Positions 6,681-25,501 of a stretch of DNA of 64,000 nt are shown here, in pieces. The notes beneath the pieces were generated by a model. That model saw only the letters and a program-made list of their open reading frames with translations, was not told where the DNA came from and searched no databases. Position numbers and translations under genes: made by a program. Origin of the DNA: Paludibacter sp. (GTDB lineage: Bacteria > Bacteroidota > Bacteroidia > Bacteroidales > Paludibacteraceae); NCBI GenBank assembly GCA_028710415.1, contig JAQTUE010000011.1, positions 62,001 to 126,000 of the forward strand, given 5' to 3'. Position 1 is the first letter of the stretch. Each line of letters opens with the position of its first letter.

Positions 6681-6763
6681 GGGCAGTTACCAAAGTGGCC
6701 AACTGGGGCTGACTGTAACTCAGCTGTCTTTCGACTTCGGAGGTTCGAATCCTTCACTGCCCA
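6681..6763 (+). tRNA. tRNA-Tyr (GTA)
   Basis: Acceptor GGGCAGT/ACTGCCC, anticodon loop CTGTAAC, long variable arm, T-arm GGTTCGAATCC. Confidence 0.93.
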
Positions 6764-6856
6764 CATTGCCAATTTGAAAATGAATCCATTTGAAGATCTG
6801 AAAATGCAATAAACATTTTCAAATATCCAAATTTTAAAATCTTCAAATTGTATTTT

Positions 6857-6932
6857 GCGAAAGTAGCTCAGTTGATAGAGCATTAGCCTTCCAAGCTGAG
6901 GGTCGCGGGTTTGAGTCCCGTCTTTCGCTCCA
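6857..6932 (+). tRNA. tRNA-Gly (TCC), CCA encoded
   Basis: Acceptor GCGAAAG/CTTTCGC, anticodon loop CTTCCAA, T-arm CGGGTTTGAGTCCCG, followed by T-CCA. Confidence 0.95.
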
Positions 6933-19743: not shown

Positions 19744-21264
19744 ATGAAAAAATTCTATGTTTACTTATTAATGGTCGTTTTGCTAAACTTACTTCCTCTA
19801 CAACATATTCTGGCAGGATGTGGTCCTGCCTGGATGAAAAAGACAGTTCCTGCAGCAGGTTCATTCCTTTTACCGGACAATAAAATATCTTTTACCTTTG
19901 TAGCCGGCTCCGGAACACAGCAGGTAGTTGGAGGCAATATCCACCTGTACAAAGCTTCGAATGACAGTTTGATTGAAACAATTGCAATTGCCAGCGTTTA
20001 TCCTGTTGGAAGTTATGGAAATGTTGACGGTTCATTTGAATTTGTGATCAGCAAAAAACTGGAAAGCGATACCCAATATTATGTACTGATTGATTCCGGT
20101 TCATTTGCATGCAGGGAATACGTTTATGACTTCTTGAAGGACAGTACCGGCAAATCATTTGTATGGAATTTTACAACAGCAGCATCACCCGTAACCATTA
20201 ATTACAGCGGAGCCGTGAATTTCTGCCAGGGAGAAACAGCAACGTTGAGCGTGCTTAAATGTTATTCGTACCTGTGGTCGACCGGTGAAACAACTCAAAC
20301 TATTACTGTTCACCATTCCGGAAAGTATTCCGTCAGTGTTGTTTATATGAATGGTACTTCAGCAACTAACTCAATAGATATTAGCGGCAAACAACCCGTT
20401 TCCGTTCCTATTTGCTATGTATCGGTTGATTCACTTTCACAAAATAATATTATCAGCTGGGACAAAACGAACCTCTCCATTGTTGATAGTTTTATTGTTT
20501 ACCGTGAGACCACAACCGATAACTACCAACAGGTGGGAGCAGTGCCTTACAAAGGTGCAGCAGGACTATTCACCGATACGGTACGCGCGAAATACTTTCC
20601 TAATACCGGAAACCCGAATGCAGGAACGTACCGGTATAAACTTCAGGTCAGGGATACCTGTGGGAATTACAGCGCATTGAGTGGATACCACAATACCATT
20701 TACATGAATAATAACAATGGGACTTTCTCCTGGATAAAATTGTACAGTATTGAAGGAACAGATAACCCTGTAAACGCCTATGTGTTAATGCGTGATGATA
20801 ACAGTGATGGTACCTGGCATGCCATTAACAGCGTTACCGGCACACAATATACTGTAACCGACCCTGCATACCTGAACTTTAAAAATACAGCCCGATGGAG
20901 GGTGGAAACACTTTGGGGTATCAGTTGTGGAGAACCAATGAGAGTAAAAGGTAGCACGACTGTAAGCAGAGTTTCACGTTCTAACACGCGTAGTGCTTTA
21001 AATTCAGGCATTTCAACAGTAACAGCATCAGAACTGTTTAAACTATACCCTAATCCAAGCCAGGGTAAGTTTATGCTCGAAATGACTGGTGAACAACCTG
21101 CGAATGTAAAAATATACAGTATCCTGGGAGAGCTTGTTTACGAACAAAAAACAACAGATCGAATTCAACAGATTGATTTATCGGATTATCCCGCCAATAT
21201 TTATTTTGTAGAAGTGCAATTCAAAGATAAAGCATTTAAACAAAAACTGGTATTGACAGAATAG
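19744..21264 (+). CDS. T9SS type A sorting domain-containing secreted protein
   Basis: Signal peptide; C-term LFKLYPNPSQGKFMLEM...VKIYSILGELVYEQ...IYFVEVQFKDKAFKQKLVLTE. Confidence 0.9.
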   Translation: MKKFYVYLLMVVLLNLLPLQHILAGCGPAWMKKTVPAAGSFLLPDNKISFTFVAGSGTQQVVGGNIHLYKASNDSLIETIAIASVYPVGSYGNVDGSFEFVISKKLESDTQYYVLIDSGSFACREYVYDFLKDSTGKSFVWNFTTAASPVTINYSGAVNFCQGETATLSVLKCYSYLWSTGETTQTITVHHSGKYSVSVVYMNGTSATNSIDISGKQPVSVPICYVSVDSLSQNNIISWDKTNLSIVDSFIVYRETTTDNYQQVGAVPYKGAAGLFTDTVRAKYFPNTGNPNAGTYRYKLQVRDTCGNYSALSGYHNTIYMNNNNGTFSWIKLYSIEGTDNPVNAYVLMRDDNSDGTWHAINSVTGTQYTVTDPAYLNFKNTARWRVETLWGISCGEPMRVKGSTTVSRVSRSNTRSALNSGISTVTASELFKLYPNPSQGKFMLEMTGEQPANVKIYSILGELVYEQKTTDRIQQIDLSDYPANIYFVEVQFKDKAFKQKLVLTE

Positions 21265-21572
21265 TTCAGGATAATTTGGTGAAATATAGTGATCTTTGTA
21301 CTGTACAGTCATATTATTTGAACCTATAAAAGTATTTCCTGGAAAACAGGATTAAAATGCGATCATGGAATGTGATTTAGTTCATTTTATACCTGTCATA
21401 TGGAGCACTGTTTTTAGGAATTAATGGTGACCAACTTCAATCCCGTTGAATAGTTATCAACAATCTCGTTTCATGTGTAATGATAATCAGGCCATTACCC
21501 TGTTCATAACTCTGTTGAAATGTTGTTTGCAAATACAAGGTAAAATACTTGCAAAACGCATATTCAATGCAG

Positions 21573-21580
21573 TATATTTG
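21573..21580 (+). promoter_or_regulatory. Bacteroidetes-type promoter -7 box TATATTTG with TTG 21 nt upstream
   Basis: TTG at 21549-21551, TATATTTG at 21573-21580. Confidence 0.6.
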
Positions 21581-21586
21581 CATCAT

Positions 21587-23017
21587 GAGTTTCGACTCAA
21601 AACATGAAATGATATGTTGAAACGCTCTTTGAAATACTGAAACATCAAAAAAAGTCAATAGTTAAATGCCGAACCCAACTACAGGGGTGCAGGTTTGTTT
21701 TATGTAAAGAACGAACTGACTGTTCAGACAAGTTATCTCCGTTATTGTTTACGCAAGTTTGCAATGAGATGCATAACAAAGAGAATAGTTTTACGGTCTC
21801 TGGCAAAAATAGACTTCCCGCTGAGTCAGACTCACTAAATATAATTATGGTGCGTTTGAATAAAACGTAACCCTGTCTCTTGCAGACAGGAAAGCCGGGT
21901 AGTCGGGATGGGAATCTGTAAAAAGTAATTCGTTACTTCTATTCATTTCCGGCCACAAAGAATAATCAGCAATGTTTTGAACTTGTGACTAACAGTTCCA
22001 GGCGAGCAGTACAAAAAAATTAAAAGTCGCGGCAGTTCGGTATTTATTTATAAATGAGTTTATAATTGTACGAATTTTATTTTTTGGTAAAAATACCAAC
22101 AGAGTAAAACAGTCAAGAGTAAAAAAACTGTGTAAGTATAAACCTGATAGCAATATCAGGATTGTACTATAGCGGTGAAATTAAAAAAATCAGCAAATCT
22201 GATAGCTAATAATTTGAACCTGAAACAGGAAGAACCGAAATCCACGTAATACGGGATCAAGTTTGACAAGCGTGAAAAGGGAAAAATTGCCGGTAAACAA
22301 TTGCGAATGGTAAACATTCTCATTTGTGATTACGTAAAAAGCAACTAAGATTTCGACGGTATTCAAGGTAGTTCTATCCGAATGACAAATCTGCCAAGAT
22401 GTGTCAATCCCAGGACTCGAAACTATGAAAGTAGCCGTAACCCGTGAACACCAGAATGATTATATACAAATTTCATCTAAAAATAGTTTCATTGCAAAAC
22501 AATGAAACTAACTATACAGAATTTCAATTTCTATTGACCGGTGATTTGAGTTCTTTGAAAATAGTGATTTCAGGTAAATCCGTAAAAGGATGATAAATTG
22601 AAACACATACTTTGCACGAACAAGTTTGAATCTTACATGCTAAAACATTTGAGATTAAGCCCAGAGAGAATCCGGAAATTGTAAACAAGTAGTTTTATAA
22701 AAAACTGCATACAATCAGCCGGATTAAGCAGAGTAAAAACGAATCAAAGACAGAGATGGCTGCAACAGGCTATCCGCGAAAAAGGAGAAAAAGGACAAAT
22801 TGGTAAAACAGTCTGTAAAATTAATCTGAAGCGGAAAGATACGGCAGCAGTAAGCAAGGTAAAACCCGGCATACTAAAACGGATCCAAATCAAACTCATG
22901 GTGTTTCATCAGTATTCAAAGATAGTCACATTAAATTTTATGTTCAGAGAGGGTGTTGTAAAAGACACCCTCTTACTGTTTAAAATAGGTTAGACTCATC
23001 ATCTGACCTTTTTTTAT
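21587..23017 (+). ncRNA. Candidate very large structured non-coding RNA
   Basis: No plus-strand ORF of 60 aa or more between 21265 and 23260; own promoter; many short hairpins with UUCG/GNRA-like loops; strong terminator at the 3' end. Confidence 0.5.
22987..23017 (+). terminator. Intrinsic terminator
   Basis: AGGTTAGA-CTCATCA-TCTGACCT followed by TTTTTT. Confidence 0.85.
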
Positions 23018-23260
23018 TTCAACAAAGCAGGTTTAATTGAAAAAAAGGAAAATATTTATCATTCAGTTTTAAATGATCACTTTAAGTCTATATATTTTCA
23101 AATAAACAGGACTTAATATCACTAATTAAACTCGATATAGAATCCAGGAATATGATTGTTTAGGTCTGTATTTATAATAGGCTGTAAATGTTTAAGTAAA
23201 AATTAATATATTTGTGGTTAAATTAGAAAGAATTGTAAATACAACTGATTAGCATATTTA

Positions 23261-25501
23261 ATGAAAAAATTAACTCTCCTGGCATTTGTTCTTTTATTAA
23301 CCGTACACTCCCTTACAGCCCAAGGTACATCCGAAGACTACAAACGTGCTTTTTCACTTCAGGCAAAATTGAAAGATAAAGTCTATTACTCCAATGTTGT
23401 TCCAACCTGGATAGATCATACAAACAGTTTCTGGTACGTGCGAAATACACCTCAGGGTAAAACATACCTGTTGACAGATGCAAAAAAGAAGTGGCGAACC
23501 GTGCTTTTCGATCATATGAAACTGGCTGAATCACTTTCGAAAGCAACAAAAACCAATATTGATATAGAGCAACTTTCATTACAATCCTTACAGGTTTCAA
23601 CGAATCTGGATACCCTTCGATTTATAGCCAATGGTTCAAGATGGACTTATATTAAAAATACTGATACGTTGAAAAATGATGGAATCCCGGTTTCTGCAAA
23701 ACCTGAATACTGGGGAACAGTAGATACAGAACGAACAGGAGAACCGGTTATTTCACCCGATAAAAAGCTGGTGGCATTTGTAAAGGATAACAACCTATAC
23801 ATCAAAGACAGTTTGACAGGAACCATAAAATCTCTCAGCACCAATGGTACCCGGGACGATTATTATTCAGCTTATCTTTATTGGTCGCCCGACTCTAAAA
23901 AGATAGCAGTAATGTGCATTCACGCAGCTGATACCCGCCAGTTGTATCTGATTGAATCCTCGCCATCTGACCAGTTGCAACCAAGATTGCATACCCGCAA
24001 TTACGTTAAACCAGGTGATGTATTGCCACAACGAACTCCGGTGATTTTTGATATTGAAACAGGGGATATTAAAACCGCCTCAACCGATTTATTCAAACAA
24101 CAGATGGATTTAAAAGCTTTTGAATGGTTGCCGGACAGCAAATCGGTGATATTTGAATACAATGAACGAGGCCATAAAGTATACAGGGTATTGGAAATGT
24201 CGGTTCAAACAGGCGTTGTAAAGACACTCATTGAAGAAACTTCAAATACTTTTGTAAATTACAATCGTTATTTCCGCCAAAACATCAACAATACAAACGA
24301 AATTATCTGGATGAGCGAGCGCGATAACTGGAATCATTTGTACCTGTACAACCACCTGACGGGAAAAGTAAAAAATCAAATCACCAAAGGCGAATGGTAT
24401 GTACGCGATATTGTTAATGTGGACGAAAAGAAACGAGAAATTATTTTCTCCGCTAACGGCATGGTACACAACGAAGATCCTTATCTGGTGCGTTACTACC
24501 GCATCCGTTTTGATGGCTCCGGGCTTACCTGCCTGACTCCTGAAGAAGGTATGCATCAAGCCTGGTTTTCGGAAGATAAAAAGTATTTGGTAGATGTATA
24601 TTCTCTGGTCAACAAAGCCCCGGTAGCCGTTTTACGTTCTGCCTTGGATGGCAAAATTGTTATGGAACTTGAAAAAGCGGATATTTCAAAATTGGTACAA
24701 TCGGGGTGGAGTGCTCCACTACCTTTTGTAGCAAAAGGTCGTGATGGCAAGACCGATATCTGGGGTATTATCCAGCGTCCTACAAACTTTGACCCAACAA
24801 AAAAGTATCCTGTGATTGAATATATTTATGCAGGTCCGGGAAACCAATATGTACCAAAAATATTTATTCCATTTAACCGTAATATATCAGCAATTGCCGA
24901 GTTGGGCTTTATAGTCATTCAAGTGGATGGCATGGGAACTTCGTTTCGTTCCAAGTCATTCGAGGATATTTGTTATAAAAACCTGAAAGATGCAGGATTT
25001 TTAGACCGCATAGCCTGGACAAAGGTAGCTGCTGCCACCTATCCGTATATGGACATCGGTCGTGTAGGTATTGCCGGTAGTTCAGCTGGTGGGCAGGAAT
25101 CCATGGGGGCGGTACTATTTCACCCTGAACACTATAAAGCTGCCTATTCCGCCTGTGGGTGCCACGATAACCGTATGGATAAAATGTGGTGGAATGAGCA
25201 GTGGATGGGTTATCCGGTTGATAAGTCGTACGAAGAAAGTTCCAATGTGGTAAACGCCCATTTACTTACCCGGCCTTTGATGTTGGTGGTTGGCGAATTG
25301 GATGACAATGTAGATCCATCGAGCACTTACCAGGTTTGCAACGCACTGATAAAAGCAGGCAAAGACTTTGAACTTGTAGTTTTACCAGGTTCCAACCATA
25401 CTATGGGAGGTGATTATGGCGAACATAAACGTTTCGATTTCTTTGTGAAGAACCTGATGGGTATTTCACCACCAAACTGGGAGTCGGTTGTTGTAAAGTA
25501 A
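23261..25501 (+). CDS. S9 family prolyl oligopeptidase / DPP-IV-like peptidase
   Basis: DPPIV N-terminal region; catalytic GIAGSSAGGQESMGA, DDNVDPSSTYQ, PGSNHTMGG. Confidence 0.92.
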   Translation: MKKLTLLAFVLLLTVHSLTAQGTSEDYKRAFSLQAKLKDKVYYSNVVPTWIDHTNSFWYVRNTPQGKTYLLTDAKKKWRTVLFDHMKLAESLSKATKTNIDIEQLSLQSLQVSTNLDTLRFIANGSRWTYIKNTDTLKNDGIPVSAKPEYWGTVDTERTGEPVISPDKKLVAFVKDNNLYIKDSLTGTIKSLSTNGTRDDYYSAYLYWSPDSKKIAVMCIHAADTRQLYLIESSPSDQLQPRLHTRNYVKPGDVLPQRTPVIFDIETGDIKTASTDLFKQQMDLKAFEWLPDSKSVIFEYNERGHKVYRVLEMSVQTGVVKTLIEETSNTFVNYNRYFRQNINNTNEIIWMSERDNWNHLYLYNHLTGKVKNQITKGEWYVRDIVNVDEKKREIIFSANGMVHNEDPYLVRYYRIRFDGSGLTCLTPEEGMHQAWFSEDKKYLVDVYSLVNKAPVAVLRSALDGKIVMELEKADISKLVQSGWSAPLPFVAKGRDGKTDIWGIIQRPTNFDPTKKYPVIEYIYAGPGNQYVPKIFIPFNRNISAIAELGFIVIQVDGMGTSFRSKSFEDICYKNLKDAGFLDRIAWTKVAAATYPYMDIGRVGIAGSSAGGQESMGAVLFHPEHYKAAYSACGCHDNRMDKMWWNEQWMGYPVDKSYEESSNVVNAHLLTRPLMLVVGELDDNVDPSSTYQVCNALIKAGKDFELVVLPGSNHTMGGDYGEHKRFDFFVKNLMGISPPNWESVVVK

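Follow-up and report, generated by a model that had tools for sequence, protein, structure and literature searches.

The gap between a gene for a T9SS-sorted protein (19744-21264) and a DPP-IV gene (23261-25501) houses a single-copy gene that comparison identifies as encoding a structured non-coding RNA of about 1.40 kb (21583-22984, plus strand). All positions refer to the window, the stretch of 64,000 nucleotides of Paludibacter sp. DNA that we analysed. The transcript itself is inferred and has not been demonstrated. That a real, new and very large structured RNA gene lies here is, in our judgement, close to certain. Our main reading goes further, and we give it a probability of roughly 0.7: this is a free-standing gene in which a repeat array and promoter drive an RNA of about 1.4 kb, which acts in trans as a folded structural molecule, serves the cell in an accessory capacity and is controlled by an oligomeric regulator. 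Expression and function are inferred in this reading. An earlier note had proposed a structured RNA of this size with its own promoter and terminator. Comparative evidence agrees with that proposal, including the RNA gene and its promoter, but the note had overlooked a long-range closing stem, a multibranched long-range architecture and a conserved repeat array upstream. The structured RNA is supported by full-length homologues at non-syntenic sites, by compensatory changes throughout and by strand-specific G-U pairs, and also by the absence of a coding signal and of any match to Rfam, phage or plasmid records.

Homologues, for which the earlier note had suggested a nucleotide search, are found in 22 of 48 Paludibacter genomes and in seven genomes of the sister genus g55, the latter confirmed with a promoter model (R2). 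BLASTN placed the element in 19 of 60 relatives. Identity among homologues ranges from 45 to 81%, and their predicted transcripts are 0.65-1.72 kb long. A structure model built from 21826-22030 (R1) detected one copy each in 17 Paludibacter and three g55 genomes, plus one further weak match in genus g29 (E 8e-4). The same model had no match beyond its own genome in a sample of the order (395 genomes, 208 genera) or of the class (316 genomes), and no RNA match was found in phages, plasmids or three viral-contig pattern scans. The locus is present once in its own genome. The complete genome of one relative (G015; 3,685,504 bp) lacks the RNA, even though its DnaA and the DnaA of a carrier share 95.5% identity. 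Because closely related species such as this one do without the RNA, we infer that it serves an accessory function.

Folded as a single sequence, the two halves of the RNA give z = -4.1 and -7.6 against dinucleotide shuffles. Sixteen full-length homologues, aligned by sequence only (MAFFT, 1851 columns), yield a consensus of about 350 pairs (353 tested) with 165 compensatory pairs and a fold energy of -358.5 kcal/mol; the corresponding ranges in 19 column-shuffled controls were 41-70 pairs and -135 to -157 kcal/mol. This structure was derived from the same alignment on which it was tested, with the exception of a held-out test. In that test, a fold learned on 11 sequences kept 81% of its pairs in one withheld relative (L057), 73% in another (L059) and 65-68% in g55, while a slid control kept 35-47%. 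Doubly changed pairs still paired in 32 of 42 cases in L057 and 49 of 70 in L059, and in 35/76, 34/66 and 32/58 cases in the withheld g55 relatives. Since the g55 relatives keep only about half of these pairs, parts of the fold model are wrong or lineage-specific.

Under an R-scape-like tree null based on substitution shuffling, 83 of 353 pairs had p<0.05, with 17.7 expected and 16-32 in slid controls; three pairs had E<0.05. Covariation is strong in aggregate, but 16 sequences limit what can be said of any one pair: most pairs taken singly are not significant by this measure, and the case rests on the whole structure. Domain 1 (Table 1), counted independently, is 93.6% paired (22-49% in slid controls) and has 11 doubly changed pairs against 4.5 in shuffles, none of 500 being as high. 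The plus strand is favoured, both in energy (-358 versus -283 kcal/mol) and in the balance of G-U over A-C cells (603 versus 203), and this preference agrees with the direction of promoter and terminator. The comparison demonstrates that selection maintains the predicted fold rather than the sequence or any reading frame.

Alternatively, the locus could be decayed coding DNA, or its hairpins could have arisen by chance. The gap is AT-rich and lacks long ORFs, as the earlier note had said in reporting no plus-strand ORF of at least 60 aa; the longest ORF on this strand with an ATG, GTG or TTG start is 53 aa. Neither origin sits well with full-length conservation in two genera and with compensatory changes. 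In pairwise comparison of homologues, 95.5% of indel runs have a length not divisible by three, the frame and place of the longest stop-free stretches vary, and no clear codon periodicity is seen in the substitutions. The coding test and the consensus fold, set against its shuffles, thus contradict decay or chance as an explanation, and we give it next to no credence. By its own account the earlier note would have been refuted by a frameshifted ancestral protein or by stems without compensatory changes; the indel runs speak against the first, and the compensatory changes seen in the stems against the second.

The structured RNA is organized around a stem that joins its two ends (Table 1). In each of 25 homologues, which span 651 to 1720 nt, this closing stem beats 200 of 200 shuffles; it shows compensatory changes in 8 of 24 consensus pairs and persists in relatives that lack 700 nt of inner domains. 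One large branch of the consensus contains domains 1 and 2. A homologue of 732 nt (L061) is without domains 2 and 3, and another of 972 nt (L012) has lost much of both. The longest homologue (L058:8360-10079; 1720 nt) carries extra blocks of about 150 nt and about 110 nt at two loop positions, in the manner of expansion segments. From these losses and insertions we conclude that the core is a closed stem with exchangeable domains.

Table 1. Predicted features of the RNA gene and its upstream region (window positions)
Feature	Position	Strand	Basis or remark
Structured non-coding RNA	21583..22984	+	homologues, consensus structure with compensatory changes, strand preference
Conserved upstream array of DnaA-box-like direct repeats	21449..21544	+	alignment of 26 homologues
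Array repeat TTATCAACA	21454-21462	+	upstream array
Array repeat TGTTCATAA	21501-21509	+	upstream array
Array repeat TGTTGAAAT	21513-21521	+	upstream array
Array repeat TTGTTTGCAA	21523-21532	+	upstream array
Promoter: -33 TTG (21549-21551), 21-nt spacer, -7 box TATATTTG (21573-21580)	21549..21580	+	sequence
5'-terminal hairpin GAGT-TTCG-ACTC, loop UUCG or UACG	21586..21599	+	kept in 16/16 full-length homologues
5' arm of long-range closing stem	21601..21646	+	duplex with 3' arm in 25/25 homologues
Domain 1, branched 5' domain, most conserved; stems 21691-21816, 21744-21765, 21872-21890, 21923-21938	21654..22045	+	
Domain 2, variable (some relatives lack it or have a shorter form); hairpins 22135-22168, 22484-22510	22128..22519	+	
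Domain 3, branched 3' domain, not present in L061 and mostly lost from L012	22542..22892	+	
3' arm of long-range closing stem	22900..22944	+	pairs with 21601-21646
Conserved 3'-end hairpin GAGAGGGTGTTG/AGACACCCTCTT with T-rich tail; T run after it in several relatives (intrinsic terminator)	22947..22984	+	
Second, back-up intrinsic terminator AGGTTAGA..TCTGACCT + T run	22987..23016	+	position recurs in some loci

Ten hairpins ahead of the last terminator had been listed in the earlier note; all ten are present in the window, and eight recur in homologues and two do not. The 5' UUCG hairpin (21586-21599), those at 21872-21890, 21923-21938, 22082-22102, 22135-22168 and 22578-22591, and the terminator hairpin (22947-22974) are conserved, and the one at 22484-22510 recurs with its stem kept and its ends variable. 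The hairpin at 22048-22065 folds in just a few relatives, and that at 22189-22203 is weak or absent in many homologues. The terminator that the note had placed at 22987-23017 does exist in the window as a local back-up, without conservation of its sequence; the conserved 3' end is a GAGGGTG..CACCCTC hairpin ending at about 22974. A simple scan for pseudoknots and kissing loops gave no clear loop-loop complementarity, only two weak 5-bp candidates. We also observed that CATCATGAGTTT (21581-21592) can pair with AAACTCATGGTG (22892-22903), 1.3 kb apart, over 12 nt at 92%. This could be an alternative or tertiary pairing that competes with the conserved 5' hairpin.

The -7 box TATATTTG and the TTG 21 nt upstream of it are both present where the earlier note had located them, and the box is invariant in 26 of 26 aligned homologues. 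We take this promoter to fit the Bacteroidota -33/-7 consensus, and infer that the RNA starts at about 21585-21588. All 26 homologues have a common order, in which TTATCAACA, TGTTSATAAC, TGTTNANAAG and TTGTTNANAA repeats are followed by TTG and then TATATTTG; the array repeats are conserved and lie 11-12 bp apart. The tandem TGTTSATAAC pattern occurs 14 times in the 48 genus genomes, 13 times at the RNA and once in G310. On two long contigs the densest cluster of TTATSAACA-type sites is the array at the RNA locus. By analogy, we infer that a protein oligomerising on these regularly spaced repeats controls transcription of the RNA. DnaA is the leading candidate for this regulator; its involvement is possible and is suggested by sequence resemblance only. 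The G310 occurrence lies on a short contig (C258; L158:361-453, minus strand), where an array promoter, TGTTGATAACCTGTTGAGAAGTTGTT then TTATATTTGCAG, has no RNA downstream; a promoter similar to it occurs at G371:C5:2002-2137 (L193).

If the repeats are true DnaA boxes, the RNA could be made in step with replication initiation and act on the replication or segregation machinery. The TTATCAACA/TGTTSATAA repeats do resemble DnaA boxes, they are conserved and regularly spaced, and the array is almost unique to the RNA locus in 48 genomes. In G375, a genome in one contig, a distance of 4.5 kb separates the RNA from dnaA and the GC skew changes close by, and R2 matches with TGTTGATAA occur at mraZ/division-cluster promoters in three other Paludibacteraceae genomes. 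However, there is no GC-skew switch at the RNA in G000:C35 or G309:C28, dnaA is off the RNA's contig in every other genome checked, and the dnaA regions of relatives have no such array; a location at the origin is therefore not upheld. An oriC-associated element was rejected, skew and dnaA proximity being confined to G375. The DnaA box of Paludibacter is itself unproven, and a complete relative lacks the RNA altogether. We consider a replication-linked RNA doubtful, although control of the RNA by DnaA, judged by resemblance alone, remains possible. In genus g29, promoter-model matches (L174, L186, L192) fall at the mraZ/division-cluster promoter, with TGTTGATAA beside GTGGGG repeats; this is a hint that cell-cycle genes in Paludibacteraceae make use of TGTTGATAA-type boxes. 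Weak R2 matches in g29 were rejected as further RNA loci and are mostly ordinary promoters.

Homology between non-syntenic loci extends from about 21449 to about 22984, reaching slightly further at loci that have the second terminator in common. The conserved cassette is a predicted single transcription unit composed of repeat array, promoter, RNA and terminator. Its neighbours differ in most species and include housekeeping genes; there is no fixed neighbour gene, and no partner protein or conserved neighbour of the RNA was found. Some loci have synteny in common (L051/L053/L059; L060/L061/L064), and in g55 the RNA lies beside an rlmD-like methyltransferase gene. The window has no tRNA within 14 kb of the RNA; a tRNA-Tyr and tRNA-Gly pair lies at 6681-6932, about 14.7 kb away.

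The RNA lies upstream of the DPP-IV gene in the same direction, and could thus be read as a long cis-acting leader of that gene, riboswitch-like or an attenuator. Terminators at 22947-23016 and a further 240 nt stand between the two, however, and in relatives the RNA adjoins unrelated genes, often in opposite orientation. Many relatives have the DPP-IV gene but no RNA next to it (G018 and G032 carry the RNA on a different contig), and the gene downstream of the G311 RNA likewise occurs in relatives without it. Cis-regulation of a neighbour is thus excluded for practical purposes, and a leader role appears very improbable.

Patchy presence, differing neighbours and sharp borders are what one would see if the transcription unit were a selfish or mobile cassette, a small element that spreads; its fold would then help to move the cassette itself, as in introns, HEARO and IS-associated RNAs. 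DnaA and RNA divergence are also discordant for some pairs of genomes (e.g. G016/G024). Yet, taken overall, distances between RNAs are correlated with those between DnaA proteins (rho 0.72), and there are some shared synteny groups. Each genome has one copy, without an adjacent ORF or recombinase, and Rfam gives no match to an intron or to HEARO. Because the paired ends are located within the conserved unit, they are not terminal inverted repeats; a MITE-like arrangement was rejected, as the promoter array and terminator fall outside them. We regard a mobile cassette as improbable.

The free-standing structural RNA that we favour belongs to no catalogued family. The earlier note had recognised no known large RNA here, and cmscan bears this out: at E<=5, a scan of 20000-25000 returned only two irrelevant sub-threshold snoRNA matches outside the RNA region, and nine homologous loci had no match at the Rfam gathering threshold. 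We found no such RNA described for Paludibacter or Bacteroidales in the open-licence literature searched, although an earlier description elsewhere is not excluded. The RNA is new as far as Rfam and this literature go. It meets the criterion for a large ornate bacterial non-coding RNA, namely extensive covariation-supported structure in an ORF-less transcription unit.

Among the described RNAs of this kind, OLE, GOLLD and ROOL, none is larger than GOLLD, which exceeds 800 nt; it occurs mostly in phages or prophages near tRNA islands, and ROOL has the same setting (PMC12286853). Like GOLLD, the Paludibacter RNA is very large, ornate, protein-free and of unknown function. Unlike GOLLD, it is about 1.4 kb long and chromosomal, lies away from tRNAs, has no counterpart in the searched collections of phage and viral sequences, and is conserved in its 5' domain and both ends. 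With ROOL it has in common that it is a large stand-alone ornate RNA with no known protein partner, but it is modular in length and more than twice as long. Like OLE, it is a large RNA that a bacterial group carries on the chromosome in a single copy, but it has no fixed neighbour, while OLE has recurrent neighbours and known protein partners. Because it fails each covariance model and lacks the phage and tRNA setting, we rejected membership in GOLLD, ROOL or OLE. For HEARO or a group I or II intron one would expect an associated ORF and usually several copies; HEARO and group II introns are likewise large folded RNAs at varying genomic sites, but the Paludibacter RNA is single copy, has no associated ORF and matches none of these in Rfam. 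The best reading is of a trans-acting, modular large ornate RNA that is like OLE, GOLLD and ROOL in style but unrelated to them.

We propose the following explanation. At the head of the gene, as comparison shows, stand a conserved array of repeats and a promoter of the Bacteroidota type. A regulator would oligomerise on the TGTTSATAAC repeats to control transcription, DnaA being favoured among candidates by likeness of the sites and nothing more, and the RNA would be transcribed from its own promoter, an inference made without transcript data. Comparison also shows that the 5' and 3' ends of the RNA pair in a stem of about 45 nt around three branched domains, followed by the terminator hairpin; the inner domains are modular, giving totals of 0.65-1.72 kb. 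The RNA may be a folded structural molecule that works in trans, whether as an assembly of RNA alone or as a scaffold for protein, as is thought for OLE, GOLLD and ROOL. By this analogy, a structural or scaffold role under a dedicated oligomer-binding regulator is its most likely part in the cell; function is inferred, not demonstrated. A bolder and unlikely version is that this is a new class of giant RNA, larger than GOLLD, ROOL and OLE, in which a constant closed stem with exchangeable domains is switched on by DnaA through the box array and forms a replication-tied machine or cage.

Very few bacterial RNAs besides ribosomal RNA are so large and structured, and each known one has raised a new question. 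Natural experiments are also at hand: a minimal core is defined by the relatives that lack one or two domains, and loss of function can be studied by comparison with close species that do not carry the RNA. The RNA can also be made in vitro and imaged directly.

The assembly from which the window comes carries a second dnaA (G000:C100; L172), only 33% identical to Paludibacter dnaA. The 6.28-Mb bin of this genome is probably contaminated (6.3% by its own score).
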